Positions 7,393-64,000 of a stretch of 64,000 nt of DNA are shown here, in pieces; the stretch's first letter is position 1, and every line of letters starts with the position of its first letter. The notes under the pieces were generated by a model. That model worked only from the letters and a program-made list of their open reading frames with translations, had not been told where the DNA came from and made no database searches. Source of the DNA: Gemmatimonadota bacterium (lineage in GTDB: Bacteria > Gemmatimonadota > Gemmatimonadetes > Gemmatimonadales > Gemmatimonadaceae). The translations under genes and the position numbers were made by a program. The DNA lies in assembly GCA_028287305.1 (NCBI GenBank), contig JAQBPX010000014.1:1-64000 (forward strand). The letters run 5' to 3'.

Positions 7393-7845
7393 ATGAAGAA
7401 CCTGTTCGAGCCCGCCACGGTGGCCGAGGTGAAGGCGCGCCTCGACACCGTCACGCCGGGCAGCGTGCGGCAGTGGGGCAAGATGACGGCGCCGCAGGCG
7501 CTCGCGCACATGGCGCGCGGCATGGAGATGGCCACCGGCGAGCGCAGGAAGCCGCGCATGCTGATCGGCCGCGTGCTCGGGGGCATCATCAAGCCGCTGG
7601 CACTCGGCAACGACCAGCCGATGAAGCGCAACTCGCCCACCACGCCCGACCTCGTGGTCGCCGATGAGCACGACCTCGAGCAGGAGCGCGCGGGGTTGCA
7701 CCAGCTTATCGACCGGTTTGTTGCGGCGGGGCCAGCAGGCTGCTCGACGCACCCGCACCCGTTCTTCGGCACGATGACCCCGCAGCAGTGGTCAATCCTG
7801 ATGTACAAGCACCTGGACCATCACCTGCGGCAGTTCGGGGCGTAG
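7393..7845 (+). CDS. DUF1569 (DinB-like) protein
   Basis: Product of 150 aa. It has the DUF1569 layout: an N-terminal MKNLFEPATVAEVKARLDTV, the motif WGKMTAPQALAHMARGMEMATGE with the first metal-ligand His, and the C-terminal HPFFGTMTPQQWSILMYKHLDHHLRQFG with the remaining His ligands. Members are four-helix DinB-fold proteins of unknown reaction, probably cytoplasmic. Four bases separate its stop from the GTG of the following phosphotransferase gene. Confidence 0.87.
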   Translation: MKNLFEPATVAEVKARLDTVTPGSVRQWGKMTAPQALAHMARGMEMATGERRKPRMLIGRVLGGIIKPLALGNDQPMKRNSPTTPDLVVADEHDLEQERAGLHQLIDRFVAAGPAGCSTHPHPFFGTMTPQQWSILMYKHLDHHLRQFGA

Positions 7846-7849
7846 GCGA

Positions 7850-8779
7850 GTGACGTCGCTCGAGGAATGCCTACCCGCCGAGCTGCGCGGTGCCACGATC
7901 ACGAAGATCCAGGCGGGGCTCTCCGGCGCGGGCGTGTACAAGGTGGAGCACGACGGGCGCGCACTCGTGCTCAAGGTCGGCAGCGCCGAGTCGCCGCTCG
8001 GCGAGTGGAGGAGTCGCCTCGGCACCCAGCAGCTCGCGGCCGACGCGCGAATCGCGCCGCGCGTCGTGCACGTGGACGAGGCGCGGCGCGCCGTGGTGAG
8101 CGAGTTCGCGAGCACGCCCTTCCTCGCGCTGCTGGGTCGCCCCGACATGCGCGAGGGCATCATCGACGAGCTCGGCCGGCTGCTGCGCGGGGTGCATGCG
8201 CTGCCCCTTCCCGACGACGCGCGCACCGGCGACCCGCGCGACCACCTGCGCGCAGTGTCGCAGGGGGTGTCGGCCGACGACACGCTGCCCGCGTTCATGC
8301 GCGACGCGATCGCGCGCGAGCTGGCACTCACGATGCCGGCGAGCGGTCGCGCGCCCGTGATGAGCCACAACGACGTGAACCCGTCCAACCTCGCGCACGA
8401 TGGCGTGCGGCTGGTGCTGCTCGACTGGGACGTCACGGGACCGAACGACCCGTATTACGACCTCGCTACGCTCGCGGTGTTCATGCGACTGGACTCCGCT
8501 GCGAGCCTCCGGCTGCTCTCGGCTTACGAAGGCACCGAGGTAACGGAGCTGCCCTCGCGATTCACGGCCGAACGACGATTCCTCGGCGTGCTCGTGGGAT
8601 CGATGTTCTCGATGCTGGCGCTCAGGAGCGGCCATCCCGGTGATGCGAGCGCGACACTGGAGTCCACGGTCCCACTCGCTGACGTCACGCAGCGCATGCG
8701 CGCGGGGCAGCTCACCCTCGGCACCCCCGAGGGACAGTGGCTCTATGGCAACGGACACGTGAGGGAAGCGCTCCGGTGA
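7850..8779 (+). CDS. APH-family phosphotransferase
   Basis: Product of 309 aa starting at GTG 7850. It shows the aminoglycoside/choline-kinase-like fold: a nucleotide-loop region GLSGAGVYKVEHDGRALVLKVG with the ATP lysine, the catalytic loop SHNDVNPSNL near residue 172, and the metal-binding DWD motif with PYYDLATL just after. The substrate cannot be read from the sequence; the closest general pattern is choline/aminoglycoside kinase-like enzymes that phosphorylate a small hydroxyl compound. Length is normal. Context (DUF1569 upstream, small coiled protein downstream) gives no pathway. Confidence 0.87.
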   Translation: MTSLEECLPAELRGATITKIQAGLSGAGVYKVEHDGRALVLKVGSAESPLGEWRSRLGTQQLAADARIAPRVVHVDEARRAVVSEFASTPFLALLGRPDMREGIIDELGRLLRGVHALPLPDDARTGDPRDHLRAVSQGVSADDTLPAFMRDAIARELALTMPASGRAPVMSHNDVNPSNLAHDGVRLVLLDWDVTGPNDPYYDLATLAVFMRLDSAASLRLLSAYEGTEVTELPSRFTAERRFLGVLVGSMFSMLALRSGHPGDASATLESTVPLADVTQRMRAGQLTLGTPEGQWLYGNGHVREALR

Positions 8780-8905
8780 GCGTGCTGCGGCTGGCGGAAG
8801 GGGGCGATGGGACTGCGGGACAGCTGGAGGCGCGCCAAAACTCCGGCCGCGCGGAGCACGTAGGGAACGCGGCGGCCGCCTCGCGGCCCTTTCCCGGAGC
8901 TGACC

Positions 8906-9217
8906 ATGACTGACGATACCTTCAGGATCGCCATCTCGATCGTGGCGTCCACCTTCGCCTTCGTCTCGGTGCTGCGCGTGTTCCGCGGCGCGATCGAGGC
9001 GAAGTACTCGCGTCCGCAACCCGTGGCCGACCAGGCGCTGCTCGACCGCCTCGAACGAATCGAGATCGCCGTGGAATCCACGGCCGTCGAGGTCGAGCGA
9101 ATCTCGGAGTCGCACCGGTTCATGGCCAAGCTGCTCTCGGAACGCGCGGCGGCACCCATTTCGGTCCCGGCGGCGGCGGCCCCGGGCAACCAGGGGCGCG
9201 TGATCACCCCGCACTAG
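8906..9217 (+). CDS. Small protein with one N-terminal membrane helix and a helical domain
   Basis: Product of 103 aa preceded by GGAGCTGACC before ATG 8906. Residues about 6-25 form one hydrophobic helix (FRIAISIVASTFAFVSVLRVF). Residues 42-78 are amphipathic and probably coiled (LLDRLERIEIAVESTAVEVERISESHRFMAKLL), followed by an Ala/Pro-rich tail. Proteins of this shape are common next to Gemmatimonadota signalling genes, but no function is known. The 126 bases before it show nothing clear beyond the ribosome-binding site. Confidence 0.65.
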   Translation: MTDDTFRIAISIVASTFAFVSVLRVFRGAIEAKYSRPQPVADQALLDRLERIEIAVESTAVEVERISESHRFMAKLLSERAAAPISVPAAAAPGNQGRVITPH

Positions 9218-9248
9218 CAGCACGCGAGATCTTGCGGTCAGGAGCGAA

Positions 9249-9267
9249 ATGCCCACTCTTTGGGCAT
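9249..9267 (+). other. Small inverted repeat overlapping the start codon of the TPR gene
   Basis: ATGCCCA (9249-9255), a 5-base loop CTCTT and TGGGCAT (9261-9267) form a perfect 7-bp stem. The 3' arm contains the first two bases of the ATG at 9266. If it folds in the message it would hide the start codon, so it may modulate translation; it could also be a regulator half-site pair. Confidence 0.4.
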
Positions 9268-11278
9268 GACGCACACCCTGACTGCGCGACGCATCCTGCT
9301 CGTCGCGATTCCCGGCGCGCTCCTCGCGCGGCCCGCTCGCGCGCAGGAGCAGGAGCCCATGGCGCACGACCACGCGCACACCGCCATGGTCGGCAGCGTG
9401 AACTTCCACAACTCGGGCTCGCGCGCGGCACAGGCGCCCTTCCAGCAGGGCGTCGCGTGGCTGCACAACTTCAAGTACCAGGAGGCGATCGCGAGCTTCC
9501 AGCAGGCGGAACGCGCGGACAGCACCCTGGCGATCGCCTACTGGCTGGAGGCGCTCAGCTACAGCCACGTGATGTGGAATGTCGAGAACCTGCCCAAGTC
9601 ACGCATGACGCTCGCGCGACTCGGCGCCACGCCGGCCGACCGGCTCGCCAAGGCGAAGACCGAGCGTGAGCGCGCCTTCGGGGCAGCAGTCGAGGCGTTC
9701 TACGCAGATGCATCACTCGGCGTACGCGCGCGCGCGTACTCGGACTCCCTGCGGGCGTTGGCGGCACTGGACACCACCGATCTCGAGGCGTCTGCCTTCG
9801 CTGCACACGGCGCAATGATGGCGTGGTCGGCGGCCCCGGCGTCGGAACGTGCTGCGCTCGCTGCGGCGAGTCGCTCGCTCGCCCTGCGCGTGTTTCATTC
9901 AAACCCGCATCACCCCGGCGCCGCGCACTACCTGACGCACGTCGCCGACATGGACCCGGCTTCTGCGAAGGACATGCTCCCCTTCGCGCGCGCCTACGAC
10001 AAGATCGCGCCCGATGCGGATCATGCGCTGCACATGCCGTCGCACGTCTTCCTTCCGCTCGGCCTCTGGCACGAAGTGTCCCTGGCCAACGAGCGCGCAT
10101 GGCGTGCGAGTCGCGCGGAAGTGGCGCACGACAAGGCGACGGGAGCCGAGCTGTCGTACCACACCCTCGAGTGGCTGCAGTATGCGTACCTGCAGGAGGG
10201 ACGATGGAGTGCAGCGCGCGCCCTGGTGGACACCGCGCGGCGCGCGCTGGCAGGCGTCCCGATCGCTGACGGGAATGCCGATGCGCGCTTCGCGGCGAAC
10301 GTCCTCGCGTTCACGTACTCGATGGAGTCGGGCGACTGGTCGGAGTGGAAGGCGCAGGCGCCGGACATCGCGATGGCCTTCGCGCAGCCGACGCCCTCGC
10401 TCCGCGCGTGGAACATGACGATGACGAATGCGTACCAGCTCGCCGTCGCGGCATTGATGGCGAGGGCCGACACCGCCTCGGCGCGAGCCGTGGCGGCGCG
10501 CTTTCGGGGCATCGCCGACAGCCTGCCCGCCGATGCGCGTCGCGGCGCCGCATTGCGCTCCGCCGGCGAGCTCGAGGCGATGGTCGCGCGGGCCCAGGGC
10601 GACCTGCCGCGTGCGGTCGGGCTGCTTCGCGCAGCCAGCCAGACGGAGGCTGCGTCGTTTTCCACGCCTCCCACGCGCATCCCGGCGCACGAGCTGCTGG
10701 GCGAGTGGCTGCTGCAGTCGGGGAGCACCGCCGACGCAGTGAGGGAATATCAGGCCGCGCTCGCGGCGCGACCCAACCGGTCGCGGGCGGTGCTGGGGCT
10801 CGCGCACGCGATGAGGGCGGCAGGAGATACCGCGGGCGCCGCGACTGCGTTCGCGCAACTGGGGAAGAACTGGGTTCGGGCGGACATGAGGGTGCGGCGG
10901 AGCATTGGCGCCGATCGTCGCAACCAGGGTGCCGATAAAACCCTCAGGATCTCGTTCGAGGGCGACGCGCTGGCATCGCCTGCAGTCCGGAGCGAGCTCG
11001 GCTCGGCGCTCGGCCGCGGATTCACGAGCGCTGGGCTGCGAGTGCTTCCCCCGCTCGAGCGGGTGGTGCCGCTCGACGCCGAAGGCGCTCGCATGACCGC
11101 GGTCGCGCAGCTGTCGATTGGCACGGCTGCACGCACTCTGAAACTGCGAATGGTGAACGTGTCGACGGGCGAGGTCATTGCGCGCGATTCCATTCGACTG
11201 GGCGCGTCGGGCGACTCGGCGAGGGTGCTGGCGCAGAGGGTAGCTGCGTCAGCGCGCGCCGCAGGAGCGCGGCGGTGA
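9266..11278 (+). CDS. Secreted TPR protein with C-terminal TolB-like domain
   Basis: Product of 670 aa from ATG 9266 (a TTG six bases upstream is in frame but less likely). A signal peptide ends near ARPARAQ. The segment NFHNSGSRAAQAPFQQGVAWLHNFKYQEAIASFQQAERADSTLAIAYWLEAL is a TPR pair; further repeats run through residues about 60-520 (including EYQAALAARPNRSRAVLGLAHAM). The last 110 residues (TLRISFEGDALASPAVRSELGSAL ... VLAQRVAASARAAG) resemble TolB N-terminal/FlgO-like modules seen in kinases of this lineage. Probably a periplasmic scaffold or sensor; partner unknown. Confidence 0.78.
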   Translation: MTHTLTARRILLVAIPGALLARPARAQEQEPMAHDHAHTAMVGSVNFHNSGSRAAQAPFQQGVAWLHNFKYQEAIASFQQAERADSTLAIAYWLEALSYSHVMWNVENLPKSRMTLARLGATPADRLAKAKTERERAFGAAVEAFYADASLGVRARAYSDSLRALAALDTTDLEASAFAAHGAMMAWSAAPASERAALAAASRSLALRVFHSNPHHPGAAHYLTHVADMDPASAKDMLPFARAYDKIAPDADHALHMPSHVFLPLGLWHEVSLANERAWRASRAEVAHDKATGAELSYHTLEWLQYAYLQEGRWSAARALVDTARRALAGVPIADGNADARFAANVLAFTYSMESGDWSEWKAQAPDIAMAFAQPTPSLRAWNMTMTNAYQLAVAALMARADTASARAVAARFRGIADSLPADARRGAALRSAGELEAMVARAQGDLPRAVGLLRAASQTEAASFSTPPTRIPAHELLGEWLLQSGSTADAVREYQAALAARPNRSRAVLGLAHAMRAAGDTAGAATAFAQLGKNWVRADMRVRRSIGADRRNQGADKTLRISFEGDALASPAVRSELGSALGRGFTSAGLRVLPPLERVVPLDAEGARMTAVAQLSIGTAARTLKLRMVNVSTGEVIARDSIRLGASGDSARVLAQRVAASARAAGARR

Positions 11279-50249: not shown

Positions 50250-51512
50250 GTGCGCCGCCTCCATCAGAACCTCACCGTGCAGGTGCTCGTCGCGATCGCC
50301 CTCGGCGTATTGCTCGGCACCTTGTCGCCCGCCACCGCGCGCGCCATGAAGCCGGTGGGCGACACGTTCGTGAACATGGTGAAGATGGTGATCACCCCGG
50401 TCATCTTCCTCACGATCGTCCTCGGGATCGCCAACATGAGCGACCTGAAGAAGGTCGGGCGCGTGGGCGGCATGGCCCTGCTCTACTTCGAGATCGTCAC
50501 CACCCTGGCCCTCGCGATTGGCCTGCTGGTCGTGAACATCACCCGCCCCGGCGAGGGGCTCGACGTGAGCGCCCTCGCGAAGGGCGACGTCACGAAGTTC
50601 GCCGAAGCCGGCAAGGCGATGACGTTCGTGGACTTCGTCACGCACATCGTGCCCTCGAGCGTGGTCGGCGCCTTCGCCAGTGGCGACGTGATCCAGGTGG
50701 TGTTCTTCGCCGTGCTGTTCGGCGTGGCGCTCTCCCTCAGCGGCGAAGCGGGGGCGCCGATCACAAACCTGCTCGAACGCCTCTCGAAGGTCTTCTTCCG
50801 CATCGTCGCCATCGTCATGATGGTCGCCCCCATCGGCGCCTTCGGCGCGATGGCCTTCACGATCGGCACCTTCGGCCTGAAGAGCCTGCTCCCCCTCGGC
50901 CGCCTGATGCTCGACGTCTACCTCACGATGGCAATCTTCATCTTCGTCGTGCTGAACCTGATCCTCCGCGCACACGGCTTCTCGCTCTGGACTTACCTCA
51001 AGTTCATTCGCGAGGAGGTCCTGATCGTGCTCGGCACCTCGAGCAGCGAGGCGGCGCTGCCGAGCATGATCGACAAGATGGAGCAGTACGGCTGCGCCCG
51101 CTCGGTGGTGGGGCTCGTGATTCCCGCGGGCTACTCGTTCAACCTCGACGGGACCTCCATCTACCTCTCGATGGCCGCGATCTTCATCGCGCAGGCCTTC
51201 CACGTCCACCTGTCACTCGCCCAGCAGCTGAGCGTGCTCGGCGTATTGATGCTCACGTCGAAGGGCGCCGCGGGAGTCACGGGCTCCGGCTTCATCGTGC
51301 TCGCCAGCACCCTGGCCGCGCTGCGCGTAGTCCCCGTGGAAGGAGTAGCCATCCTGCTGGGCGTGGACCGATTCATGAGTGAAGCGCGGGCGATCACGAA
51401 CCTGATCGGCAATGGGGTCGCGACGCTCGTCATCGCGCGCCACGAGCGCGCCTTCGACCAGATGGCGCACGAGCGCGGCATCCTCGCGCTGGCCGAGGCG
51501 CGTCGCGCGTGA
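50250..51512 (+). CDS. Dicarboxylate/amino acid:cation symporter (DAACS family)
   Basis: Product of 420 aa from GTG 50250. Inner membrane Na+- or H+-coupled uptake of dicarboxylates or acidic amino acids is known for this family. Seen: VTPVIFLTIVLGIANM in helix 3, serine-rich GTSSSEAALPSMIDKMEQYG (re-entrant loop), GLVIPAGYSFNLDGTSIYLSMAAIFIAQ (NxDGT cation motif), TSKGAAGVTGSGFIVLASTL and VDRFMSEARAITNLIGN (DR...N substrate motif). Full length. Its stop overlaps the GTG of the sigma factor gene (GTGA), so it heads the sigma/FecR/SusCD unit. Confidence 0.93.
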   Translation: MRRLHQNLTVQVLVAIALGVLLGTLSPATARAMKPVGDTFVNMVKMVITPVIFLTIVLGIANMSDLKKVGRVGGMALLYFEIVTTLALAIGLLVVNITRPGEGLDVSALAKGDVTKFAEAGKAMTFVDFVTHIVPSSVVGAFASGDVIQVVFFAVLFGVALSLSGEAGAPITNLLERLSKVFFRIVAIVMMVAPIGAFGAMAFTIGTFGLKSLLPLGRLMLDVYLTMAIFIFVVLNLILRAHGFSLWTYLKFIREEVLIVLGTSSSEAALPSMIDKMEQYGCARSVVGLVIPAGYSFNLDGTSIYLSMAAIFIAQAFHVHLSLAQQLSVLGVLMLTSKGAAGVTGSGFIVLASTLAALRVVPVEGVAILLGVDRFMSEARAITNLIGNGVATLVIARHERAFDQMAHERGILALAEARRA

Positions 51513-52093
51513 GGTCGTTGCCGGAGCCCGGCGAGTCGCAGGAACGCGACGACGAATCCGACGTCGCGCTCTGCGCAGCCATTCGCGGCGGCAGCAGCAC
51601 GGCATTCGAGCGGCTGTTCCGCGCGCATCATCCGGGAATGGTGGCGTTCGCGACGCGAATGATGGGGCGCGGCGAGGTGGCCGAGGACCTGGTGCAGGAG
51701 GTCTTCCTCTATGTGTGGCGCAATCGTGAGACGTGGCAGGTGCGCACGGGAGTGCGGCAGTACCTCTACTCGGCGCTGAGGCACGGCGCGCTGCGCTACA
51801 TCCGCCACGAGCGCGTGGTGCGGCATCACGCGCCCGAGGCCATTGCGCTGTTCGATCGCGCGCCGCGCATGGCCGACGCAGACCTCACCGCGCGCGAGAC
51901 GGTGCTGCTGGTGCGCGAGGCCATCGCGCGGCTGCCGGAGCGCTGCCGCCTGGTGTACACGCTCCATCGCGAGCAGGGGCTGACGTATGGGGAGGTGGCC
52001 GCGGTGATGGGCATCTCCGCCAAGACGGTGGACGTCCAGATGGGACGCGCCCTCAAGTCGCTCCGGCGGTCACTGATGCCGCACAGGGACTGA
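51509..52093 (+). CDS. ECF-type RNA polymerase sigma factor (FecI-like)
   Basis: Product of 194 aa from GTG 51509. Region 2: FERLFRAHHPGMVAFATRMMGRGEVAEDLVQEVFLYVWRNRETW; region 4: LPERCRLVYTLHREQGLTYGEVAAVMGISAKTVDVQMGRALKSLRRSL. It is the type that pairs with FecR antisigma factors and drives a TonB-dependent receptor operon. The FecR gene follows after 312 bases that contain an inverted repeat. Control by cell-surface signalling is inferred from family and layout. Confidence 0.93.
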   Translation: MRSLPEPGESQERDDESDVALCAAIRGGSSTAFERLFRAHHPGMVAFATRMMGRGEVAEDLVQEVFLYVWRNRETWQVRTGVRQYLYSALRHGALRYIRHERVVRHHAPEAIALFDRAPRMADADLTARETVLLVREAIARLPERCRLVYTLHREQGLTYGEVAAVMGISAKTVDVQMGRALKSLRRSLMPHRD

Positions 52094-52159
52094 GCGCGGC
52101 TCAAGGCACTCCGGGAGCGGCTCGCGCCGTGGTTGCCGGACGCCTCGGGCTACGGTGAC

Positions 52160-52328
52160 TGCGTGGCGTCTGGCTTCTGGCGGGGGCTTCAGTCATCGGG
52201 CTTCGATAACGCCGGCTACGGGCTTCGGAAACTGCTTTGGATGCTCCTTTCCGCGTGGCAGTTCCCCGAAGCCGTAGCTACCGAGGCCCGAGGACCGTAG
52301 CCTGCGCCAGAAGCCAGAAGCCACGCCG
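52160..52328. repeat. Long-arm imperfect inverted repeat D between sigma and fecR genes
   Basis: Arms about 52160-52235 and 52257-52328 pair with several exact blocks: TCTGGCTTCTGGCG (52169-52182) with CGCCAGAAGCCAGA (52305-52318), and GGCTACGGGCTTCGG (52213-52228 region) with CCGAAGCCGTAGC (52266-52278). Internally the word GGCTTC recurs. The sequence is unlike copies A and C. The remaining part of the 312-base gap holds a G-rich stretch and no clear promoter. Confidence 0.8.
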
Positions 52329-52405
52329 TTCCTGAAGCCAAGGTCTTCGCGGGCGGCAGTCACTGGCCGTGTAAGGGTATCGGCGCCGCCGGGACCCATT
52401 TGGGT

Positions 52406-53473
52406 ATGGACGACCGACACTTCCGCCGCCTGGCGCGCTACTTCGCCGGCGAATGCCCGGCAGAGGAGGCGCTCGAGACGCAGCGCTGGCTGGCCGCTGA
52501 CCCGGCCCGGCAGCTCGAGGCCGACCGGCTGCACGACCTCTGGCGAGCCAGCGCCGAATCGGAGCGCGTCGCGAACAGCGATGACGCGTGGGAGCGCCTC
52601 GCCGCGCGCATGCAGGTCACGGAGGGCGTGCCGCAGGTCACGCTCTTCCAGACGGGCGAGACCTCGGTGCATCGCAAGCGCTTCCGCTGGCAGCGCGACG
52701 AATCCTCCCGCTCGCGCATCGCAGTGGTCGCCGCGGCAGCAGCCGTGCTCGTGGCGAGCGCGACGCTCTACGCGCGCCATGAAGGGCTGATCGGCTCCGG
52801 GGGCGACCGCGTGACCACCATCGCCGGCGCGCAGCCGCGCGTGTTCCGCACCGCGCGCGGCCAGCGCGCCGTCATCATGCTCGGCGACGGCACCCGGGTG
52901 GAGCTGGGCGCCGAGAGCGTGCTGCGCGTCAAGCCGTTCGGCGCGGGGGCGCGCGAGCTCACGCTCGATGGCCAGGCGGTGTTCGACGTGGCGCACGACA
53001 CGCTGCACCCATTCCTCGTTCGCTCGGGCAACGCCATCACCGAGGACCTGGGCACGCGCTTCACGGTGCGCGCCTATCACGGCGACTCGCAGGTGGAGGT
53101 GCTGGTGTCGAGCGGACAGGTGGCGCTGCGCGCGGTTGGCGCTCCAGCGAGCTCCGGCACGCTGCTCGGCCCCGCCGACCTGGGGATCCTCGACTCGATC
53201 GGGCGCACCACCGTGCGCAATGGCGCGGACTCCACCCGCTACCTGGCGTGGACCCGGGACCGGCTCGTGTTCGAGAACGCACCGCTGGGCGAAGTGGTCC
53301 GCGAAGTCTCGCGATGGTTCGACGTGAGCATCGACGTGGACGACCGCGTGAGCCTCTCGCGACGCGTGACGCTCAACGTGCCCGCACGCGCACTACCCGA
53401 GGTGCTCGGCGCGATCACCGTGCCGCTGCGCCTCCATTTCTCGATGCGCGGCCGCGACGTCTCCATTCACTGA
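52406..53473 (+). CDS. FecR-like antisigma factor
   Basis: Product of 355 aa from ATG 52406 (a TTG six bases upstream is in frame). The cytoplasmic N-terminus has the DUF4880-type start (FRRLARYFAGECPAEEALETQRWLAADPARQLEADRLHDLWRA), one transmembrane helix lies at about 104-122, and the periplasmic FecR domain follows: TARGQRAVIMLGDGTRVELGAESVLRVKPFGAGARELTLDGQAVFDVAHD ... PFLVRSGNAITEDLGTRFTVRAYHGD. The final part (FENAPLGEVVREVSRWFDVSIDVDD) is the C-terminal STN-like/DUF4974 domain that meets the receptor. Sits between the sigma and SusC genes, as expected. Confidence 0.92.
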   Translation: MDDRHFRRLARYFAGECPAEEALETQRWLAADPARQLEADRLHDLWRASAESERVANSDDAWERLAARMQVTEGVPQVTLFQTGETSVHRKRFRWQRDESSRSRIAVVAAAAAVLVASATLYARHEGLIGSGGDRVTTIAGAQPRVFRTARGQRAVIMLGDGTRVELGAESVLRVKPFGAGARELTLDGQAVFDVAHDTLHPFLVRSGNAITEDLGTRFTVRAYHGDSQVEVLVSSGQVALRAVGAPASSGTLLGPADLGILDSIGRTTVRNGADSTRYLAWTRDRLVFENAPLGEVVREVSRWFDVSIDVDDRVSLSRRVTLNVPARALPEVLGAITVPLRLHFSMRGRDVSIH

Positions 53474-53550
53474 TTCGCCCGTTGAACGCACGAATGCAAC
53501 CAGGAACTTTCGCACCGCCCATTCACCCGGCCCTGTCCCGGAGCAACACC

Positions 53551-56500
53551 ATGGACCACCGCAGACGCACCGGCACCGCTCGCCTCGCGCGATCGCTTTC
53601 CCTGCTGGCCCTCGCCGCCATCGCATGGCCGGCCCTCGGCGCGCAGGACACGTCCCCGCGCCCCGCGTTCAACGGCGCGCGCGCCCCGCAGTACCTGCCG
53701 CTCGAGAGCGTGCGATCCGGTCGCGTGCGGATGCCCGAGGCGCTCAAGCGCCGCGTGAGCGTCACGCTCGAGCGCGTGCCGCTGCAGCGCGTGCTGATGG
53801 AGATCGCCACGCAGGCCGGACTCGGCCTGTCGTACGGCGAGGACCTGGTGCGCGCGGCGCCGACCGTGTCCGTTGACATCACCGGCCTCAGCGCCGCCGA
53901 CGCGCTGGCACGAGCCGTGGACGGCACGCGCTGGACCGTGCTGGTGACGGCCAGCGGACAGGTGACGGTAAGCTCAGCGAGCGTGATGATGGTGGGCACC
54001 GTGAGCGGCCGCGTCACGGATCGCGGCAGCAACCAGCCGGTGGAGGCCGCGCAGGTGACGATCGAGGGCACGACCCTCGGCCGCACCACCACCGCTGACG
54101 GGCGCTTCAGCATCACCGGCGTTCCCGCCGGCGCGCAGCACCTGAACGTGCGACGCATCGGATACGACGCCCAGTCCGTTCCCGTGATCGTCGCCGACGG
54201 TCAGTCGGCAACGGTCGACATCGCGCTGCGCCACAGCGCCGTCTCGCTCTCCGACGTGGTGGTCACGGCGACGGGCACAGAGCGAACGCGCGAGGTCGGC
54301 AACAGCGTCTCGATCGTGGACCTGAGCAACGAGCGCGCGCCGGTCACCAACACGCAGCAGCTTCTGAGCGGCCGGGTGCCGGGCGTCACGGTGCTCTCGA
54401 ACTCCGGCCAGGCGGGCCAGGGCGGCTCGATCCGTCTCCGCGGCGTGAACAGCATCAGTCAGGGCAACTCACCGATCATCTACGTGGATGGCGTGCGCAT
54501 CTCGAATGCGCGCACGCCGACCAGCGTCGGCGGCCACGGTGACATCCTGCCGCTGAACGACATCGACATGACGGACGTGGAGCGCATCGAGGTGGTGAAG
54601 GGACCCGCCGCCACCACGCTCTACGGCACCGAGGCGAGCGGCGGCGTGATCCAGATCTTCACGAAGCGCGGCCACACTGGTGGAATCCAGACCAACCTCG
54701 ACGCGACCACCGGATTCAACAACATGGGCCATGTGGGCTCGAAGTCCGATCCCACCGGCATGTTCGTGAACAAGTGCTCGGGCGTGCAGGTGATCGGCGA
54801 CGGCACGAAGTTCGAGGATCCCACCTGTCCGTCCAGCGGCTCCTGGCTGAGCAACGGGCCGATCCGCCGCGTGTCGCTCGGCCTGCGCGGCTCCACGACG
54901 TCCAACGAGTACTTCCTCAGCGGCAACTTCGACGACGAGCACTCGGTGCTCGAAGTGGGCAACAACAAGTCCGGCGGCGTGCGCGGTAACATGACCGTGC
55001 ATGCGTCGCCCAAGCTCACGCTCGCGCTCAACAGCTCGTTCGTGAAGCGCGACGTGCGCTGGTATCCCGACGGCCTGAGCAGCAACGCCTTCCTGCTGAA
55101 CGTGTCGCGCGGATCGGGCACCTTCTTCAAGGGACCGGGCTGCACCGACGCCACCGCCGTCTGCCTGGCGAACGACAGCATCTTCACGGTCGTGAACACC
55201 ACCGCCACCAACCACTTCATCACCGGCGGCACGGCGACCTTCACGCCCATCACGCCGCTCTCGGTGCGACTGGCCGCGGGCTACGACTACAACACCGCTG
55301 ACGTCACCGACATCACGCCCTTTGGGCACCTGCGCGTGCCGCTCGGCTCCCTGGCCGAGACGCAGTGGGACCGCGCGCTGATCACGGTGGACCTTGCGGG
55401 CACCCTCACGCACCCGATCGGCAGCTCGTTCGCGACCACCACGAGTGTGGGCGGTCAGGCGTTCGACAGCCGCCTCCACTCCACCGACCTCGCGAGCAGC
55501 AACTTTGCGGCGCCGGGCACGCCGGTGCTCACGTCAGGCTCGCTGCGCAACATCAGCGGCGTGAACGAGCAGCGCGTGATCAACGCCGGCTTCTTCGGCC
55601 AGGAGATGCTCGCCTGGCGCGACCGGTTGTTCGTGACCGGCGGCGTGCGCGTCGATGGCAACAGCGCCTTCGGCACGGGGTTTGGACTCCAGACGTATCC
55701 CAAGCTCGCGATCGCCTACGCGATCTCCGACGAGCCCTTCTGGTCGAAGCGCTTCATCGAGACGCTCAAGCTGCGCGCCGCGCTCGGTGAGTCCGGCAAG
55801 GCTCCCGGTGCGTTCGACGCCGTGCGCACATGGGATCCTGTCGCCGCGGAGAACGGCCAGTCGGCGTTCGAGCCGAGCCAGGTGGGCAACCCCGACCTGG
55901 GCCCGGAGCGCACGCGCGAGACGGAAGCGGGCTTCGACGCGAGCCTCCTGAATGGCCGCTTCACCGTGTCGTACTCGTTCTACAACTCGCGCACCAACGG
56001 TGCCCTGGTGCCGGTGGTGAACCCGCCCTCCATGGGGTTCTCCACCCGGCAGCTCGAGAACATCGGCGTGCTGAAGAACCACGGCAGCGAAATCTCGCTC
56101 AATGCGCAGCTGCTCTCGCGCAGCAACGTGGACTTCAACGCCGGCCTGCAGTTCACCGCCACGAAGAGCGAGGCGGGCGACCTGGGTGGCCAGACGATCA
56201 CGGTGGACGCCAACTCCCTCTCCTTCGTGCAGCAGGGATTGCCAGCGCCGAGCTACATCGGCAGCCGCATCACCAACCCCGACGCGATCGCCGATCCCAT
56301 CGTGGAGAAGAACGTCTTCCTCGGCGGCACCTTCCCCACCGCGATCATCAACCCGCGCGCCACGCTGCGACTCTGGAACCGCGTGACGCTCGATGCCATC
56401 GGTGAATTCCAGCGCGGCGGTCACCTGCTCAACTCGATCGGCTTCGCGAACGAGGGGCTGTTCACCTGGCAGCCCTGCTACGCCACGCAGGCCAAGCTGC

Positions 56501-56847
56501 GTGCCTTCGCCGGCGGCGATGCCACGGCGCTCAACGACGTCACCGCCCGCGAGCGCGGCCGCTGCGCGATTGCCTCGAGCGTGCGTGACGCCGGCTTCTG
56601 GGTGGAGAAGAACGACTTCTTCAAGCTGCGCAGCGCGTCGCTCAGCTTCGACATCCCGAATCGGTTCCTGTACACCACGAAGGCGACGTCCATCACCTTC
56701 ACGGGGCAGAACCTGTTCAAGAGCACGAAGTACACGGGCACCGATCCGGAATCCGCTGACCAGGGAGTGAACAGCTTCTCGCGTCGCGACTACTACATCT
56801 TCCCGTCCCCGCGCACCTTCCTCGTCACTCTTCATACGAGCTTCTGA
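53551..56847 (+). CDS. SusC/RagA-type TonB-dependent outer membrane receptor
   Basis: Product of 1098 aa; ATG 53551 has GGAG nine bases upstream and starts a signal peptide (to about 33, ALGAQ). Order: STN secretin/TonB N-terminal domain (VSVTLERVPLQRVLMEIATQAGLGLSYGEDLVR, about 65-130), carboxypeptidase-regulatory-like beta domain (TVSGRVTDRGSNQPVEAAQVTIEG), plug with SusC-type sequence (QQLLSGRVPGVTVLSNSGQAGQGGSIRLRGVNS), and a beta barrel ending in ...VTLHTSF with the terminal aromatic required for insertion. The STN domain fits regulation by the FecR/sigma pair. Ligand unknown; glycans, peptides and siderophores are all possible. Confidence 0.95.
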   Translation: MDHRRRTGTARLARSLSLLALAAIAWPALGAQDTSPRPAFNGARAPQYLPLESVRSGRVRMPEALKRRVSVTLERVPLQRVLMEIATQAGLGLSYGEDLVRAAPTVSVDITGLSAADALARAVDGTRWTVLVTASGQVTVSSASVMMVGTVSGRVTDRGSNQPVEAAQVTIEGTTLGRTTTADGRFSITGVPAGAQHLNVRRIGYDAQSVPVIVADGQSATVDIALRHSAVSLSDVVVTATGTERTREVGNSVSIVDLSNERAPVTNTQQLLSGRVPGVTVLSNSGQAGQGGSIRLRGVNSISQGNSPIIYVDGVRISNARTPTSVGGHGDILPLNDIDMTDVERIEVVKGPAATTLYGTEASGGVIQIFTKRGHTGGIQTNLDATTGFNNMGHVGSKSDPTGMFVNKCSGVQVIGDGTKFEDPTCPSSGSWLSNGPIRRVSLGLRGSTTSNEYFLSGNFDDEHSVLEVGNNKSGGVRGNMTVHASPKLTLALNSSFVKRDVRWYPDGLSSNAFLLNVSRGSGTFFKGPGCTDATAVCLANDSIFTVVNTTATNHFITGGTATFTPITPLSVRLAAGYDYNTADVTDITPFGHLRVPLGSLAETQWDRALITVDLAGTLTHPIGSSFATTTSVGGQAFDSRLHSTDLASSNFAAPGTPVLTSGSLRNISGVNEQRVINAGFFGQEMLAWRDRLFVTGGVRVDGNSAFGTGFGLQTYPKLAIAYAISDEPFWSKRFIETLKLRAALGESGKAPGAFDAVRTWDPVAAENGQSAFEPSQVGNPDLGPERTRETEAGFDASLLNGRFTVSYSFYNSRTNGALVPVVNPPSMGFSTRQLENIGVLKNHGSEISLNAQLLSRSNVDFNAGLQFTATKSEAGDLGGQTITVDANSLSFVQQGLPAPSYIGSRITNPDAIADPIVEKNVFLGGTFPTAIINPRATLRLWNRVTLDAIGEFQRGGHLLNSIGFANEGLFTWQPCYATQAKLRAFAGGDATALNDVTARERGRCAIASSVRDAGFWVEKNDFFKLRSASLSFDIPNRFLYTTKATSITFTGQNLFKSTKYTGTDPESADQGVNSFSRRDYYIFPSPRTFLVTLHTSF

Positions 56848-56849
56848 TC

Positions 56850-58073
56850 ATGACGACCAACCATCGAGGACTGTCCTCCGGCGCGCGGGCCGCGGTCGCA
56901 TTCGCGGCATGCGCGATCGTGCTGGCCGGCTGCGACCTGAAGGTCACCAACCCGGGCCCCATCGCCGACGCCGCACTGAGCAACGCGACGGCCATCCCCG
57001 CGATCGTGAACGGGATGGGCGGCGACCTCTCTTTCGCGCTCGGACGCTACATCGATCGCGGCGCGCTCGCGAGTGGTGAGCTGAGCGAGGCCGGCCTGTT
57101 CATTCCGGAGACGCACTACTTCCAGGGCTCCTTCCTGCCGCAGGACGTGAACACCGACTGGAGCAACATGCAGACGGCGCGCTGGACCGCCGAGTCGGGG
57201 CTGGCGCGCATGAAGTCGGTGCTCGGCGCCGCGTTCGAGACGAACGTGAACACGCCGCGCGCCTATCTGTACGCCGGCTTTGCCAACCGCCTGCTCGGCG
57301 AGAACACCTGCGTCGCCGTGATCGACGGCGGGCCGGCGCAGAGCGACAGCGTGTACTTCCAGCGCGCCGAGAGCCTGTTCACGCGGGCGAACCAGCTCGC
57401 GACGGCACTCAACAACACCGCCGTCGCCACGGCGGCGCTCGGTGGTCGCGCGACGGTGCGCGCGTGGCAGGGGAACTGGACCGGCGCTGCTGCGGATGCG
57501 TCGCTCGTGCCCACCGCGTTCGTGTTCAACGCGATCTACTCGACGAACACCACGCGCGAGAACCTCGACATCGCCACGCAGACCATCACTCGCAGCGAGA
57601 GCACAGTGTTCGGTACCGCGTTCGCCGTGACGAACAAGGACCCTCGCGCCACGTGGGACACGGTGAAGACCGGAACCGCGGTGGCGAAGGGCGCGAATGG
57701 GACGCCGGTGTTCCGGCAGACCAAGTACAAGACTCTCGCGGCGCCGGTGGCGCTCACCAAGGGAACGGAGATGCTGCTGCTGCGCGCCGAGGCGGCGCTG
57801 CGGAATGGCGACGTGGTGAACGCGATGCTCTTGATCAACCAGGAGCGCGCGACGTTCAGCCTGGCGCCGCTCGCAGCGACCACGGTGGCGCAGGCGACCA
57901 CGATCCTGCAGTCGGAGCGCGGCTACGTGCTGTGGCTGGAAGGGCGCCGCCTCTGGGACCTGCGCCGCTGGCTGGTGGAGGGGACGAACAGCTTCCTGGC
58001 TACGCGCGACAAGTGCATCCCGCCGAGCGCCGATGAGCAGGCGTCGAATCCCAACCTGCGCGCCGGGGGATAG
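56850..58073 (+). CDS. RagB/SusD-type lipoprotein
   Basis: Product of 407 aa, 2 bases after the SusC gene. Lipobox LAGC (Cys29), then DLKVTNPGPIADAAL, the usual DUF-like N-terminus for shorter SusD relatives, and helices of TPR type (AESLFTRANQLATALNNTAVATAALGGRATVRAWQGNWTGAAADASL). The C-terminal ILQSERGYVLWLEGRRLWDLRRWL is the RagB/SusD ExxxELxxEGxRxxDLxRW signature. Partner that lids the SusC pore and binds the nutrient on the cell surface. Confidence 0.92.
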   Translation: MTTNHRGLSSGARAAVAFAACAIVLAGCDLKVTNPGPIADAALSNATAIPAIVNGMGGDLSFALGRYIDRGALASGELSEAGLFIPETHYFQGSFLPQDVNTDWSNMQTARWTAESGLARMKSVLGAAFETNVNTPRAYLYAGFANRLLGENTCVAVIDGGPAQSDSVYFQRAESLFTRANQLATALNNTAVATAALGGRATVRAWQGNWTGAAADASLVPTAFVFNAIYSTNTTRENLDIATQTITRSESTVFGTAFAVTNKDPRATWDTVKTGTAVAKGANGTPVFRQTKYKTLAAPVALTKGTEMLLLRAEAALRNGDVVNAMLLINQERATFSLAPLAATTVAQATTILQSERGYVLWLEGRRLWDLRRWLVEGTNSFLATRDKCIPPSADEQASNPNLRAGG

Positions 58074-60933: not shown

Positions 60934-61821
60934 GTGATCCTCGTGGTAGGCGCGACCGGCGTGCTCGGCTCCGAAGTGTGCCGGCGACTGCGCGCCCGCG
61001 GGCTGCCGGTGCGCGCGCTGGTGCGCGCGGGATCCACCGGGGAAGCCGCACTGCGCGCGATCGGGGTGGAGGTCGCGCAGGGCGACCTGCGTGAACCTGA
61101 GACGCTGCGCGCCGCCTGCCAGGGAATCGCGTCGGTGATCTCGACAGCCACGGCCATGGGATCGAAGGACAAGTCGCTCACCCTGCGCGCGATCGACCAC
61201 GATGGCCAGCTGCAGCTCGTGCAGGCGACCGCCAACGCCGGCGTGGAGCGCTTCGTGTACCTGTCGGTGTCGCCGGCGCTCATGCCTCCCGCACCGCTCG
61301 TGCGCTACAAGCGGGAAGTCGAGCGCGCAGTGCGCGCGAGCGGCATGACGTACACGATCCTGCAGCCGAGCGTGTTCATGGAGATCTGGCTCGGGGCGCC
61401 GCTCGGCTGGGACGTGGCCGCCGGACGCGCCACCGTGTTCGGCGCGGGTACCGCGCCCATGCGCTGGATCTCCGTGGGCGACGTGGCGGAGCACGCGGTG
61501 CGTGCCCTCGACGACCCGCGGCTCGCGAACCGTGAGCTTCCGCTGGGCGGGCCTGAAGGGATCGCCCCGAATGAGGTCGTGCGGATGTTCGAACGCCGCT
61601 TGGCGCGCCGCTTCAAGGTCACGCGCCTGCCGCGACCGTTGCTGCGGCTGATGGCGCCTGTGGCTTCGATGCTCGACGAGCAGGTCGGCTCGGGAATCGG
61701 AATGGGCGCGCAGTCGGCGCTCGGCGACAGCTTCGAGACCGCGCTTCAGGCGGAGCTCGCGCTGCCCTTGCTCACGATGAGCGAGTACGTGGAGCGCGCG
61801 CTCACTTCACCAGCGCCCTGA
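60934..61821 (+). CDS. NmrA-like atypical SDR (NAD(P)-binding)
   Basis: Product of 295 aa from GTG 60934 with GAGGAGGAG upstream inside the previous gene. Rossmann motif VIGATGVLGSEVCRRLRARG-type (ILVVGATGVLGSEVCRRL), GDLREPETLRAACQGIASVISTA, FVYLSVSPALMPPAPLVRYKREVERAVRASGMTYTILQPSVFMEIWLG, all standard for NmrA/YwnB-like NAD(P)H-binding proteins. The YxxxK catalytic pair is degenerate (VRYKREVE), so it may be a redox sensor or a reductase of quinone type. Overlaps the convergent AlkD-like gene by 20 bases. Confidence 0.9.
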   Translation: MILVVGATGVLGSEVCRRLRARGLPVRALVRAGSTGEAALRAIGVEVAQGDLREPETLRAACQGIASVISTATAMGSKDKSLTLRAIDHDGQLQLVQATANAGVERFVYLSVSPALMPPAPLVRYKREVERAVRASGMTYTILQPSVFMEIWLGAPLGWDVAAGRATVFGAGTAPMRWISVGDVAEHAVRALDDPRLANRELPLGGPEGIAPNEVVRMFERRLARRFKVTRLPRPLLRLMAPVASMLDEQVGSGIGMGAQSALGDSFETALQAELALPLLTMSEYVERALTSPAP

Positions 61822-62491
61822 GCGCGTCCTTCCCGATCCAGCGCGCCGTTCGGTCGTCCGAGTCGGCCAGCGTTCGGGAAAGCACGACCGACGCAGCCTT
61901 CAGCGTGGCATTCCGCTTTCCGATGCCGCGCAGCGCCCAGTTGACCGCCTTCTTCACGAAGTTGCGCTCGTCGCACGACTCACGCTCGATCAGGTCGAGC
62001 GCGCCGAGGAAGCGGGCGTCGCCTTCCTTCTTGTCGTGCAGCGCGACACTCGCCAGCAGCGCGAACGCCGCGCGCTTCTCGAACTCCGCCTTGCGCGAGG
62101 ACCACTTCGCGATGCGTCCCCAGGCGTGCGGCGTCTTGTCGAAGAGGTGAAAGCAGGGCGTGTCGCAGATGGCCCAGTTGTCGAAGTCGCGGCACCAGTC
62201 ATCCATCTGTCGCACGGTCACCTGCCCGGGGTCGTCCACGAAGCTGGCCATCATCCGCGCCTCGTAGCGGCCGGACTCCCAGAGCGCGAGGGCCACGTCG
62301 TGATTGCGTCCCACCTTCTTCGCATGCGCGCGAATGTCCGCCACGCTCACGCCAAAGGCGCTGTCGGTGGTGATCGCGTAGCGCGCGAGGCCGTCCCGGT
62401 TCTTCTTCGTGCCTGTGCGCTCCAGCCAGGCCAGCGCCTCCTTCACGATGACCGCTGTCGTGGCCTTCGGGGACCTGGGTTCGGGTGGCAT
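61802..62491 (-). CDS. AlkD-like DNA alkylation repair protein
   Basis: Product of 229 aa from ATG 62491 (a TTG at 62512 is possible). Armadillo/HEAT-like helices with the family signature: YGIST-type start (RYAITTDSAFGVSVADIRAHAKKVGRNHDVALALWESGRYEARMMASFV) and WCRDFDNWAICDTPC, then AFALLASVALHD and ERNFVKKAVNWALRGIGKRN, in which Trp and Asp residues place alkylated bases. Typical AlkD glycosylases excise bulky or cationic N3/N7-alkylpurines. Length is normal. Confidence 0.92.
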   Translation of the reverse strand: MPPEPRSPKATTAVIVKEALAWLERTGTKKNRDGLARYAITTDSAFGVSVADIRAHAKKVGRNHDVALALWESGRYEARMMASFVDDPGQVTVRQMDDWCRDFDNWAICDTPCFHLFDKTPHAWGRIAKWSSRKAEFEKRAAFALLASVALHDKKEGDARFLGALDLIERESCDERNFVKKAVNWALRGIGKRNATLKAASVVLSRTLADSDDRTARWIGKDALRALVK

Positions 62492-62559
62492 GCGGCAATC
62501 GTCGCGCCCCAACCGCCCTCGGTCAAGCGGGATTGCCCGAGGCGCTGCATATTCTCGCG

Positions 62560-63144
62560 ATGAGCCGCTTCTCCATACCAGGGCCCTGGCGACGCGTGGG
62601 CCTCGCGCTCGGCGGGCTGCTGTTCCTCGACCTCGGCACCCGCGTGGCCATGCCTCGCATCGATGGTCGCGTGCTCGCCGAGTGGTTCAACGGCGGCCAC
62701 GGAGGATGGCTTCTCGGCCTCTACGATCGGTTGACCGCCGGCGGATTGTCGCACGGCGGATGGCTGGCGCTGGGGATCATGCCGTACGTGTCGGCGCGCA
62801 TCTTGATGCGACTCGCGGGACTGCAGCATCGCATCCGCGCCACGCGCGTGCTGACGCTGGTGCTTGCAGCCACGCAGTCCTATGGATTCGCGCGCTGGGC
62901 GGAGCACGTCCCAGGCGCAGTCGCAACTCCGGGCGACGCGTTCGTGCGCGCCACCGTGGTGACGCTCACCGCCGGCACGCTGGTGCTGATGTGGATGCAC
63001 GAGAAGCTCACGGGGCGCGGCACTGCATCCCCCGATGCGCGCGGAGCTTCACCGCAGTTGAATGAGGGCCTTCCCCAGGCGCAGCCGATCGCGCGGCCGG
63101 AGAACGTCTCCCAGCCGCACCGACCAGTCCCCACCCCAGTCTGA
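62560..63144 (+). CDS. Stand-alone N-terminal half of a SecY-like protein
   Basis: Product of 194 aa from ATG 62560. The sequence aligns by eye with the first four helices of SecY: LFLDLGTRVAMPRIDGRVLAEWF (SecY: [21 protein letters not shown]), LYDRLTAGGLSHGGWLALGIMPYVSARILMRL (SecY: [32 protein letters not shown]), LTLVLAATQSYGFARW, and ATVVTLTAGTLVLMWMHEKLTGRG (SecY: [24 protein letters not shown]). After GRG, where SecY goes on to its C-terminal half, a Pro-rich tail of about 35 residues ends the protein. The usual cytosolic loop between helices 2 and 3 is shortened. Full SecY is about 430 aa. Function unknown. Confidence 0.8.
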   Translation: MSRFSIPGPWRRVGLALGGLLFLDLGTRVAMPRIDGRVLAEWFNGGHGGWLLGLYDRLTAGGLSHGGWLALGIMPYVSARILMRLAGLQHRIRATRVLTLVLAATQSYGFARWAEHVPGAVATPGDAFVRATVVTLTAGTLVLMWMHEKLTGRGTASPDARGASPQLNEGLPQAQPIARPENVSQPHRPVPTPV

Positions 63145-63152
63145 TCTTCCTC

Positions 63153-64000
63153 ATGCTCAAGCTCGTTCGTCCCGCCCTCGCACTCCTCCTGCTCGGCGCC
63201 TCGGCTCACGCCCAGCAATACGACCAGCTCAAGTACCGCTACATCGGGCCGGAGGGAAACCGCGTGACCTCGGTGGCGGGCGTGGGCGGCGACGTCATGA
63301 CGTATTACGCCGGCGCGGCGTCGGGCGGACTCTGGAAGACCACCGACGGCGGCGTGCACTGGGCCCCGATGTTCGACAAGGAGGTCGTGTCGTCCATCGG
63401 CTCAGTGACGGTCGCACCGAGCGACCCGAACGTCGTGTGGGTGGGCACGGGCGAGCCGTTCATCCGCTCGCACGTCTCGATCGGCTGGGGGATGTACAAG
63501 TCCACCGACGCCGGCCGCAGCTGGACGCGCTCGGGACTCGACAACACGGGCCGCATCTCGCGCATCGTGGTGCACCCCACGAATCCCGACATCGTCTACG
63601 TCGCCGCGCTCGGCACCGCCTACGGTCCGCAGCCGGACCGCGGGATCTTTCGCACGACGGACGGTGGCAAGTCGTGGGAGAAGGTGCTCTTCGTCAACGA
63701 CTCGACGGGCGCCGCGGACATCATCATGGATCCCAACAACCCGCGCATCCTCTACGCGGGGATGTGGCAGGTGGAAGTGCACACCTGGGGTCGCACCTCC
63801 GGTGGCGCCGGCAGCGGCATCTGGAAGTCGCTCGACGGTGGCACCACCTGGAAGCGCCTCACCGCGCACGGCCTGCCCGAGAAGCCGATCGGCAAGATCG
63901 GGCTCGGCATGAGCAGGGCGAACTCCGACCGCATCTACGCGCTCATCGAGACCGGCGACGGCATTCCGTCGGTGGTGTCGCCGGATCCTGCCACGGGGCG
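63153..64000 (+). CDS. Exported Asp-box (VPS10/sortilin-like) propeller protein, 5' part
   Basis: Starts at ATG 63153, nine bases after the SecY-like stop, and stays open to the window end (at least 282 codons). Signal peptide MLKLVRPALALLLLGASAHAQ. Asp-box repeats are plain: GLWKTTDGGVHW, GMYKSTDAGRSW, GIFRTTDGGKSW and GIWKSLDGGTTW, spaced by about 55-70 residues. It is a relative of the protein at 26435-29671, but with a shorter N-terminus (no Pro/Ala linker). Annotation as glycosyl hydrolase would not be supported by any visible active site. Confidence 0.9.
   Translation, partial: MLKLVRPALALLLLGASAHAQQYDQLKYRYIGPEGNRVTSVAGVGGDVMTYYAGAASGGLWKTTDGGVHWAPMFDKEVVSSIGSVTVAPSDPNVVWVGTGEPFIRSHVSIGWGMYKSTDAGRSWTRSGLDNTGRISRIVVHPTNPDIVYVAALGTAYGPQPDRGIFRTTDGGKSWEKVLFVNDSTGAADIIMDPNNPRILYAGMWQVEVHTWGRTSGGAGSGIWKSLDGGTTWKRLTAHGLPEKPIGKIGLGMSRANSDRIYALIETGDGIPSVVSPDPATG

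Follow-up and report, generated by a model that had tools for sequence, protein, structure and literature searches.

SecY and described SecY-like systems

SecY is regarded as a single channel of ten helices. The portion of Lewis and Hegde (2021; PMC8675477) drawn on here describes a SecY half as a five-helix unit and places the dimer interface of an inferred proto-SecY on the distal face of the fifth helix, H5. Accessory Sec systems possess SecY2, whose SecY-type gene exists in addition to the housekeeping secY. In Escherichia coli, SecY is the inner-membrane receptor of CDI toxins, as stated in the consulted parts of Jones et al. 2021 (PMC7858069) and of PMC11630599. Among the best matches in the open-access literature on SecY fragments and paralogues, subscription papers being outside this scope, no stand-alone SecY N-terminal protein is reported.

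The gene examined here lies near the end of a 64,000-nucleotide stretch of a Gemmatimonadaceae genome, referred to as the window, and encodes a rare free-standing SecY N-terminal module that is probably under selection and has two relatives of the same design. Its product shares with SecY (PF00344; TIGR00967) TM1, the plug TM2a, TM2b, TM3, TM4 and a G-x-x-P-Y stretch, as judged from sequence and model. It differs from SecY in lacking TM5–TM10, and hence the later cytosolic loops, and in having a short TM2b–TM3 loop, Arg in TM2b, a polar tail and an accessory genomic place. Like the proto-SecY half and the Oxa1/YidC fold, as treated in the portion of PMC8675477 used here, it is a SecY part encoded alone, but it corresponds to H1–H4 without H5. 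It resembles SecY2 as a further SecY-type gene in addition to secY; in contrast, the SecY2 models are full-length and the fragment attains 22.6 of 353 and 19.3 of 249.6 bits against their equivalog cut-offs, a weaker match than that to SecY. A free piece of SecY, maintained by selection with the plug and a single lateral-gate wall, would offer a natural means of asking what the N-terminal part can bind by itself.

A gene for the N-terminal part of SecY

The fragment, its segments and its two neighbours are arranged as follows.

62560–63144, plus strand: open reading frame of the SecY N-terminal fragment, 194 amino acids, stop included (open reading frame list and profile matches)
62584–62649, plus strand: TM1, residues 9–30 (AF2 helix; segment identity)
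62707–62733, plus strand: plug helix TM2a, residues 50–58 (AF2 helix; segment identity)
62758–62817, plus strand: TM2b, lateral-gate helix, residues 67–86, LALGIMPYVSAR (AF2 helix, alignment, segment identity)
62833–62907, plus strand: TM3, residues 92–116 (AF2 helix, alignment, segment identity)
62935–63012, plus strand: TM4, residues 126–151, TLTAGTLVLMW (AF2 helix, alignment)
63013–63141, plus strand: polar tail rich in Pro, standing where SecY has TM5 and its C-terminal half (AF2 model free of helix here; hydropathy)
61802–62512, minus strand: neighbour, not part of the feature; divergent DNA alkylation repair gene (PF08713) (open reading frame, Pfam)
63153–64000, plus strand: neighbour, not part of the feature; start of a gene for a 1064-residue secreted VPS10/sortilin-type propeller that extends beyond the window end (Pfam)

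The frame starts with an ATG at 62560, stops at 63142–63144 and is open upstream as far as a GTG at 62485; no clear Shine–Dalgarno sequence can be read ahead of 62560. Codon usage in the SecY part is gene-like, with GC contents of 0.70, 0.54 and 0.84 at positions 1, 2 and 3, the last value being lower than the 0.88–0.93 of the neighbouring called genes. The original prediction had recognized the first four SecY helices and the plug in this protein and had named a Pfam search as the check. That search returns a significant match to PF00344 (48.2 bits against a cut-off of 32.2, E 1.3e-12, profile positions 3–95 of 306), all 16 distinct PDB sequences found by phmmer up to E 0.1 are SecY (best E 6.6e-19), and the helices of a structural model agree. 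The NCBIfam profile TIGR00967 is matched over positions 6–160 of 414 with 62.2 bits (E 4.1e-17), far below the 253.6 bits that mark the equivalog, full-length protein. The similarity spans the region from the start of SecY to the end of TM4.

An AF2 model was built from 27 rows, namely three fragments (this one and the two relatives described below) and the N-terminal parts of 24 SecY proteins. It contains helices at residues 9–30, 36–44, 50–58, 67–86, 92–116 and 126–151 (mean pLDDT 72.5, pTM 0.64), which may be read from the model as TM1, a cap helix, the plug, TM2b, TM3 and TM4. When compared with the PDB by Foldseek, the model, whose likeness to SecY is partly inherited from the 24 SecY rows of its alignment, retrieves bacterial SecY chains at ranks 1–7, rank 1 at E 5.5e-5 being the only one at or below 0.001 and ranks 2–7 all lying above that value. 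The distribution of charges seen in the sequence agrees with the orientation of SecY: the N-terminus, loop 2/3 and the start of the tail are basic.

The segments have diverged to different extents. Identity to the SecY consensus amounts to 0.65 in TM3, 0.59 in the plug segment (residues 50–66) and 0.55 in TM2b, and TM1 is the least SecY-like helix, with 0.18 over residues 13–29. TM2b carries R80 and R84, in a segment that is free of charge in each of the 24 compared SecY rows, and the loop that follows it, cytosolic in SecY, is shorter than its SecY counterpart. The hydropathy of TM2b is 1.27 versus at least 1.46 across the 24 SecY rows, and that of TM3 is 0.81 versus 1.01–1.75.

Beyond residue 151 the AF2 model has no helix, and the most hydrophobic 19-residue stretch of the tail scores −0.48, so that nothing TM-like follows TM4. 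The fragment therefore consists of four TM helices and the plug, and not of ten TM helices arranged in two halves with both gate walls. The earlier description of an isolated N-terminal half encoded as its own gene stands as far as a stand-alone N-terminal SecY part is concerned; since TM5 is absent, the piece is less than a half and that word is too strong. The same absence bears on the suggestion that such a half might pair with itself. An ancestral-type half channel, forming an antiparallel homodimer like the inferred proto-SecY, finds some footing in the homology of the fragment to part of a SecY half and in the inference of such an ancestor in the consulted portion of Lewis and Hegde (2021; PMC8675477). 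It is nevertheless very unlikely, as the distal face of H5, which that portion identifies as the proto-SecY dimer interface, is missing along with TM5 in all three known members, and self-pairing is weakened accordingly. A half channel would comprise H1–H5 with the H5 dimer face, and after TM4 the fragment has no TM-like stretch that could supply it.

Full-length secY in the same genome

The window genome (4.37 Mb in 39 contigs) is rated 100% complete and 3% contaminated. An intact secY is present on the same contig as the fragment (G000:C12:411013–412017, minus strand; E 1.1e-101, 340.6 bits), adjoining the gene for ribosomal protein L15 (Pfam), with adk and map also nearby by reading. Such a full-length gene had been among the checks proposed for the original prediction, and its presence makes the fragment an extra truncated gene rather than a broken housekeeping secY.

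A frameshift with the missing half directly downstream would have spoken against the prediction; a six-frame search of the 17 kb surrounding the fragment shows no second SecY part scoring better than E 4. Another reading is a split SecY, in which a separate C-part gene, now unrecognizable or lost in an assembly gap, would complete a second translocon. Naturally split membrane proteins do occur in bacteria, according to the consulted part of PMC3464245, but the full secY and the fragment are the only two matches to PF00344 in the genome at E≤10, and no second gene for the missing part is among them. A split SecY is thus extremely improbable.

Relatives and distribution

When the single protein was searched against 59 relatives, one additional gene outside the secY operon was identified, in genome G028. 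A second match in G027 (E 5e-4) proved to be a frame devoid of SecY signal in a profile check (E 0.45) and was taken as chance. When 395 genomes of the phylum were searched with a profile of the window and G028 proteins (13 of them rechecked; up to 9 candidates scored per genome), a third member emerged in G338 (E 3.4e-16). Across 179 genomes of the family the three-member profile recovered the same three members (3/179; up to 19 candidates scored per genome). In 25 of these 179 genomes no match of any kind was found, full secY included, and 17 of the 20 listed among them are less than 90% complete.

The three carriers belong to three different genera. The fragment is found in none of the other listed members of the genera g29 (4) and g22 (29), the stretch in G287 described below apart, some of these genomes being without a full-secY match. 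Pairwise identity by alignment ranges from 0.28 to 0.37 (window–G028 0.34–0.37, window–G338 0.30–0.35). All three copies stop after TM4 and continue into a tail without a TM-like stretch, the highest 19-residue hydropathy in the tails of the other two members being 0.59 and −0.02. Recognition by general profiles is weaker in these two: PF00344 misses the G028 copy, which TIGR00967 detects at E 1.1e-4, and the G338 copy is matched at 0.018 and 2.2e-8, respectively. An HMM of the family's SecY recognizes them at 3e-21 (G028) and 2.4e-15 (G338). The plug leads all segments in identity to the SecY consensus in both G028 (0.59) and G338 (0.41), and each has one Arg in TM2b versus two in the window copy.

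At least two matches were obtained in eight genomes of the 395-genome run (G000, which is the window genome, G028, G338, G348, G106, G314, G046 and G347) and in nine of the 179-genome run, three of which are the carriers. The second match in G348 reflects two full-length frames, not a fragment; in G106 and G314 one secY is truncated by contig ends; the extra matches in G046 and G347 represent a frameshifted or contig-cut secY; and the weak second matches in G365 and G135 (0.003 and 0.006), both from the 179-genome run, were taken as chance. The two full-length secY frames of G348 (L065, L069) reside in one bin and are either a true duplicate or the product of mixed strains. The ninth genome of the 179-genome run is G287, where contig 107 breaks off within a stretch resembling the plug and TM2b of SecY (L073, 1249–1617). 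This stretch is fused to an odd frame upstream and may represent either a chimera or another gene of the fragment type.

Beyond these genomes, the window protein gave 58 pattern matches in genome contigs and 24 in viral contigs, and the three-member profile 32 in viral contigs; none was confirmed as a close relative. The G338 protein found in genome contigs its own record alone, the metagenome-assembled genome 'Gemmatimonadetes bacterium isolate GEMMA1'. Among plasmids 28 records matched, several of them chromosome-sized; in the best 20 of the 28 the annotated matches are secY and the rest are unannotated. Of six matching phage records, four carry a SecY annotation and two are short and unannotated. 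None of the genome, viral, plasmid and phage searches yielded a close pair suited to dN/dS. The three members have no match at E≤1 in PADLOC, a defence collection, and the phage collection PHROGs gave two weak matches to the G338 copy only (best E 0.13), so that the fragment does not coincide with a known defence or phage protein.

Selection or neutral drift

The original prediction had offered a decayed duplicate as one explanation. A truncated secY copy drifting without function would fit the small number of carrier genomes, the lack of a clear ribosome-binding site, the slightly low GC at third codon positions and the reduced hydrophobicity of TM2b and TM3 compared with SecY. This scenario was confronted with a neutral model in which the 5' part of each strain's own secY, standing in for the true ancestor, drifted free of selection until it reached the identity observed for that copy. 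For each copy, 300 runs were carried out at each of three GC equilibria (0.685, the GC of the genome, 0.60 and 0.75), frameshifting indels not being counted.

The nonpolar share of the TM segments is 0.87, 0.90 and 0.92 (window copy first) versus neutral means of 0.68–0.74. For each copy the observed value was reached in 0/300 runs at GC 0.685 and 0.60; at 0.75 it was reached in 2/300 for the window copy and in 0/300 for each of the other two. Jointly, the three copies keep 13 of 89 SecY-conserved residues against a neutral mean of about 3.4, a number attained in none of the 300 runs at any GC setting. Eight of the 13 fall in the cap, plug and TM2b: P32, G49, D56, G61, G72, P75, Y76 and A79. 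The frame is intact in all three members, and neutral runs at GC 0.685 remained free of stops in only 18, 13 and 14 of 300 (window first), frameshifting indels again being left aside. The genes differ from a secY pseudogene in their intact frames and, by helix composition and joint conservation, in their departure from neutral drift.

Not every measure separates the copies from drift. Taken copy by copy, the margin by which conserved columns exceed variable ones lies within the neutral range (38, 113 and 103 of 300). The helix charge of the window copy, 0.091 compared with 0.052 in its own SecY, is also reached in 63/300 runs, which fits decay for that copy; the helix charges of the G028 and G338 copies are each reached in 1/300. 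Taken together, the drift model fails, mainly by membrane composition and joint conservation and not by every measure. With two further members, and with 0/300 neutral runs at GC 0.685 on both of these counts, the decayed duplicate has lost most of its appeal and is now improbable, and the fragment is very probably a selected, functional protein.

One origin or several

In a tree of 40 rows, from which L014 was excluded because no long frame passed the motif filter, the three fragments sit on very long branches, with 8–10 changes per column. An AU test does not reject a grouping of the three fragments (p 0.70), nor does it reject the placement of each fragment with the SecY of its own genome (0.075 for the window, 0.53 for G028 and 0.15 for G338). 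Branches of this length are compatible with single and with separate origins, and the tree decides for neither. By letter shuffle, 27 non-SecY residues are common to the fragments versus 9.6 expected. In the neutral-simulation control, restricted to columns filled in the three, 23 shared novel residues compare with a mean of 17.6, a count reached in 25/300 runs, and in 10/300 and 71/300 at the other two GC settings. In view of this control, a common origin is not claimed despite the shuffle result.

The G028 and G338 loci

The fragment occupies an accessory genomic place in both relatives. In G028 it stands at the end of an inserted segment of about 5.8 kb, as its final gene, and the empty site is preserved in three sister genomes, where the flanks are separated by about 100 (G426), 120 (G173) and 360 bases (G113) and no SecY fragment is found in the flank stretches. 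The insertion encodes a Mutator-family transposase (PF00872, 90.8 bits) and, about 1.2 kb upstream of the fragment, a six-bladed propeller protein (DUF5128, E 1.3e-4, just below the cut-off) of a different kind from the VPS10-type protein of the window. It also encodes a small protein that opens with a lipobox-like sequence and contains the motif CMSC, matched by no Pfam or NCBIfam model and readable from its sequence as a putative thioredoxin-like lipoprotein, and two Cys-rich peptides that by reading have signal-peptide-like starts and end in CxPGC...CC. The same-strand order, with labels by reading, is CMSC lipoprotein, the two secreted Cys-rich peptides and then the SecY fragment. The cassette has the following position in G028.

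L033 4819–8138, equal to 7564–10883 of reverse-complemented L058, minus strand: propeller, CMSC lipoprotein and two CxPGC/terminal-CC peptides

A search of 179 genomes with the CMSC lipoprotein gave matches at E≤0.01 in ten, G028 among them, the next best being G356 (E 4e-7) and the remaining eight weak. There, a run at L130 171–1998 comprises a propeller with DUF5128 above the cut-off, a CLSC protein and a different Cys-rich peptide, and the 3.2 kb examined, 1.2 kb of which lie past the peptide, contain no SecY fragment. The two cassettes suggest that these bacteria have a family of peptide systems rich in disulfides.

The G338 fragment lies in a stretch that finds no match at the corresponding position of G021 and G093. 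It adjoins a metallophosphatase gene that is conserved in these two genomes, and two transposase genes are found about 2.3 and 7.9 kb from it. No gene was seen to be common to the neighbourhoods of the window, G028 and G338 copies, and context consequently names no role.

A possible role at the translocon

The proposed course of events begins with a secY copy that would have been cut after TM4, would have diverged strongly and would have been retained as a four-helix membrane protein, with plug and TM2b as its apparently best-preserved region. A SecY piece without TM5, TM7 and TM10 should close no pore by itself. Lacking these helices, the fragment has neither a closed pore ring nor a second gate wall, and by itself it would presumably not conduct proteins. 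It could instead act as a partial SecY mimic at the translocon, binding what the N-terminal half of SecY usually contacts, be it the SecY C-half, SecE, a signal sequence or a small gate peptide; such binding might tune or shield export. If the fragment is indeed a selected, functional protein, the chances are slightly in favour of an action on Sec-route traffic, for which a modulator, a peptide-export helper and a decoy are candidate roles. The fuller proposal, in which an accessory membrane protein derived from SecY has retained the plug/gate hairpin and acts at the Sec translocon as a modulator or mimic, is put forward at roughly even odds.

A functional protein now unrelated to protein export, in which SecY helices are reused as a generic small membrane scaffold, would account for the very long branches (8–10 changes per column), for a TM1 that is 18% identical to the SecY consensus in each member, for the new charges in TM2b and for the lack of a common neighbour gene. 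Against it stand the plug segment and TM2b, which across the three members are 0.41–0.59 and 0.30–0.55 identical to the SecY consensus, and the 13 SecY-conserved residues kept in all three. Such a scaffold is a realistic, if unlikely, reading; even then the locus would exemplify how a new gene is born when an essential channel is truncated.

For a role of the fragment at the translocon, the G028 cassette, with secreted Cys-rich peptides that travel with the fragment, provides the only hint from context, and it suggests a testable link between the translocon and peptide competition or signalling in a little-studied phylum. In a more speculative and doubtful extension, the fragments would be a family of SecY decoys: mobile plug/lateral-gate modules that accompany, or are directed against, secreted Cys-rich peptides or further translocon-engaging agents, and that might spare the cell's own SecY (target-mimic immunity) or hand a chosen peptide to the channel. 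Given that CDI toxins use SecY as a receptor, the decoy is not far-fetched. As far as the consulted parts of PMC7858069 and PMC11630599 go, the two cases are alike in that bacteria meet SecY-engaging toxins, which a SecY mimic could intercept; they differ in that CDI concerns E. coli, full-length SecY and a resistance mutation in TM7, a helix missing from the fragment, whereas a toxin is hypothetical here.

The window neighbourhood

In the window the fragment is followed after eight bases by the VPS10-type propeller gene, and from this spacing the original prediction had drawn a plausible link to export. The eight-base gap is real; the link to the downstream secreted protein is not supported. 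The nearest propeller relatives in other genera, in G024 (79% identical) and G145 (75%), are preceded by other sequence. No SecY piece is detected by unfiltered HMM upstream of any of 29 VPS10-type loci (L077–L105), these two included and some of the loci being partly covered with less upstream sequence, and the downstream gene thus seemingly needs no fragment. The direct neighbours of the G028 and G338 fragments likewise differ from the VPS10-type gene.

The propeller itself (window 63153–64000; L036 8154–11348) has ten matches at E≤1e-150 in the window genome, where VPS10-type propellers form a large paralogous family. Further upstream, at 51509–58073 of the window, genes for an ECF-type sigma factor, a FecR-type regulator, a TonB-dependent receptor and a SusD-family lipoprotein (Pfam) lie in a row.
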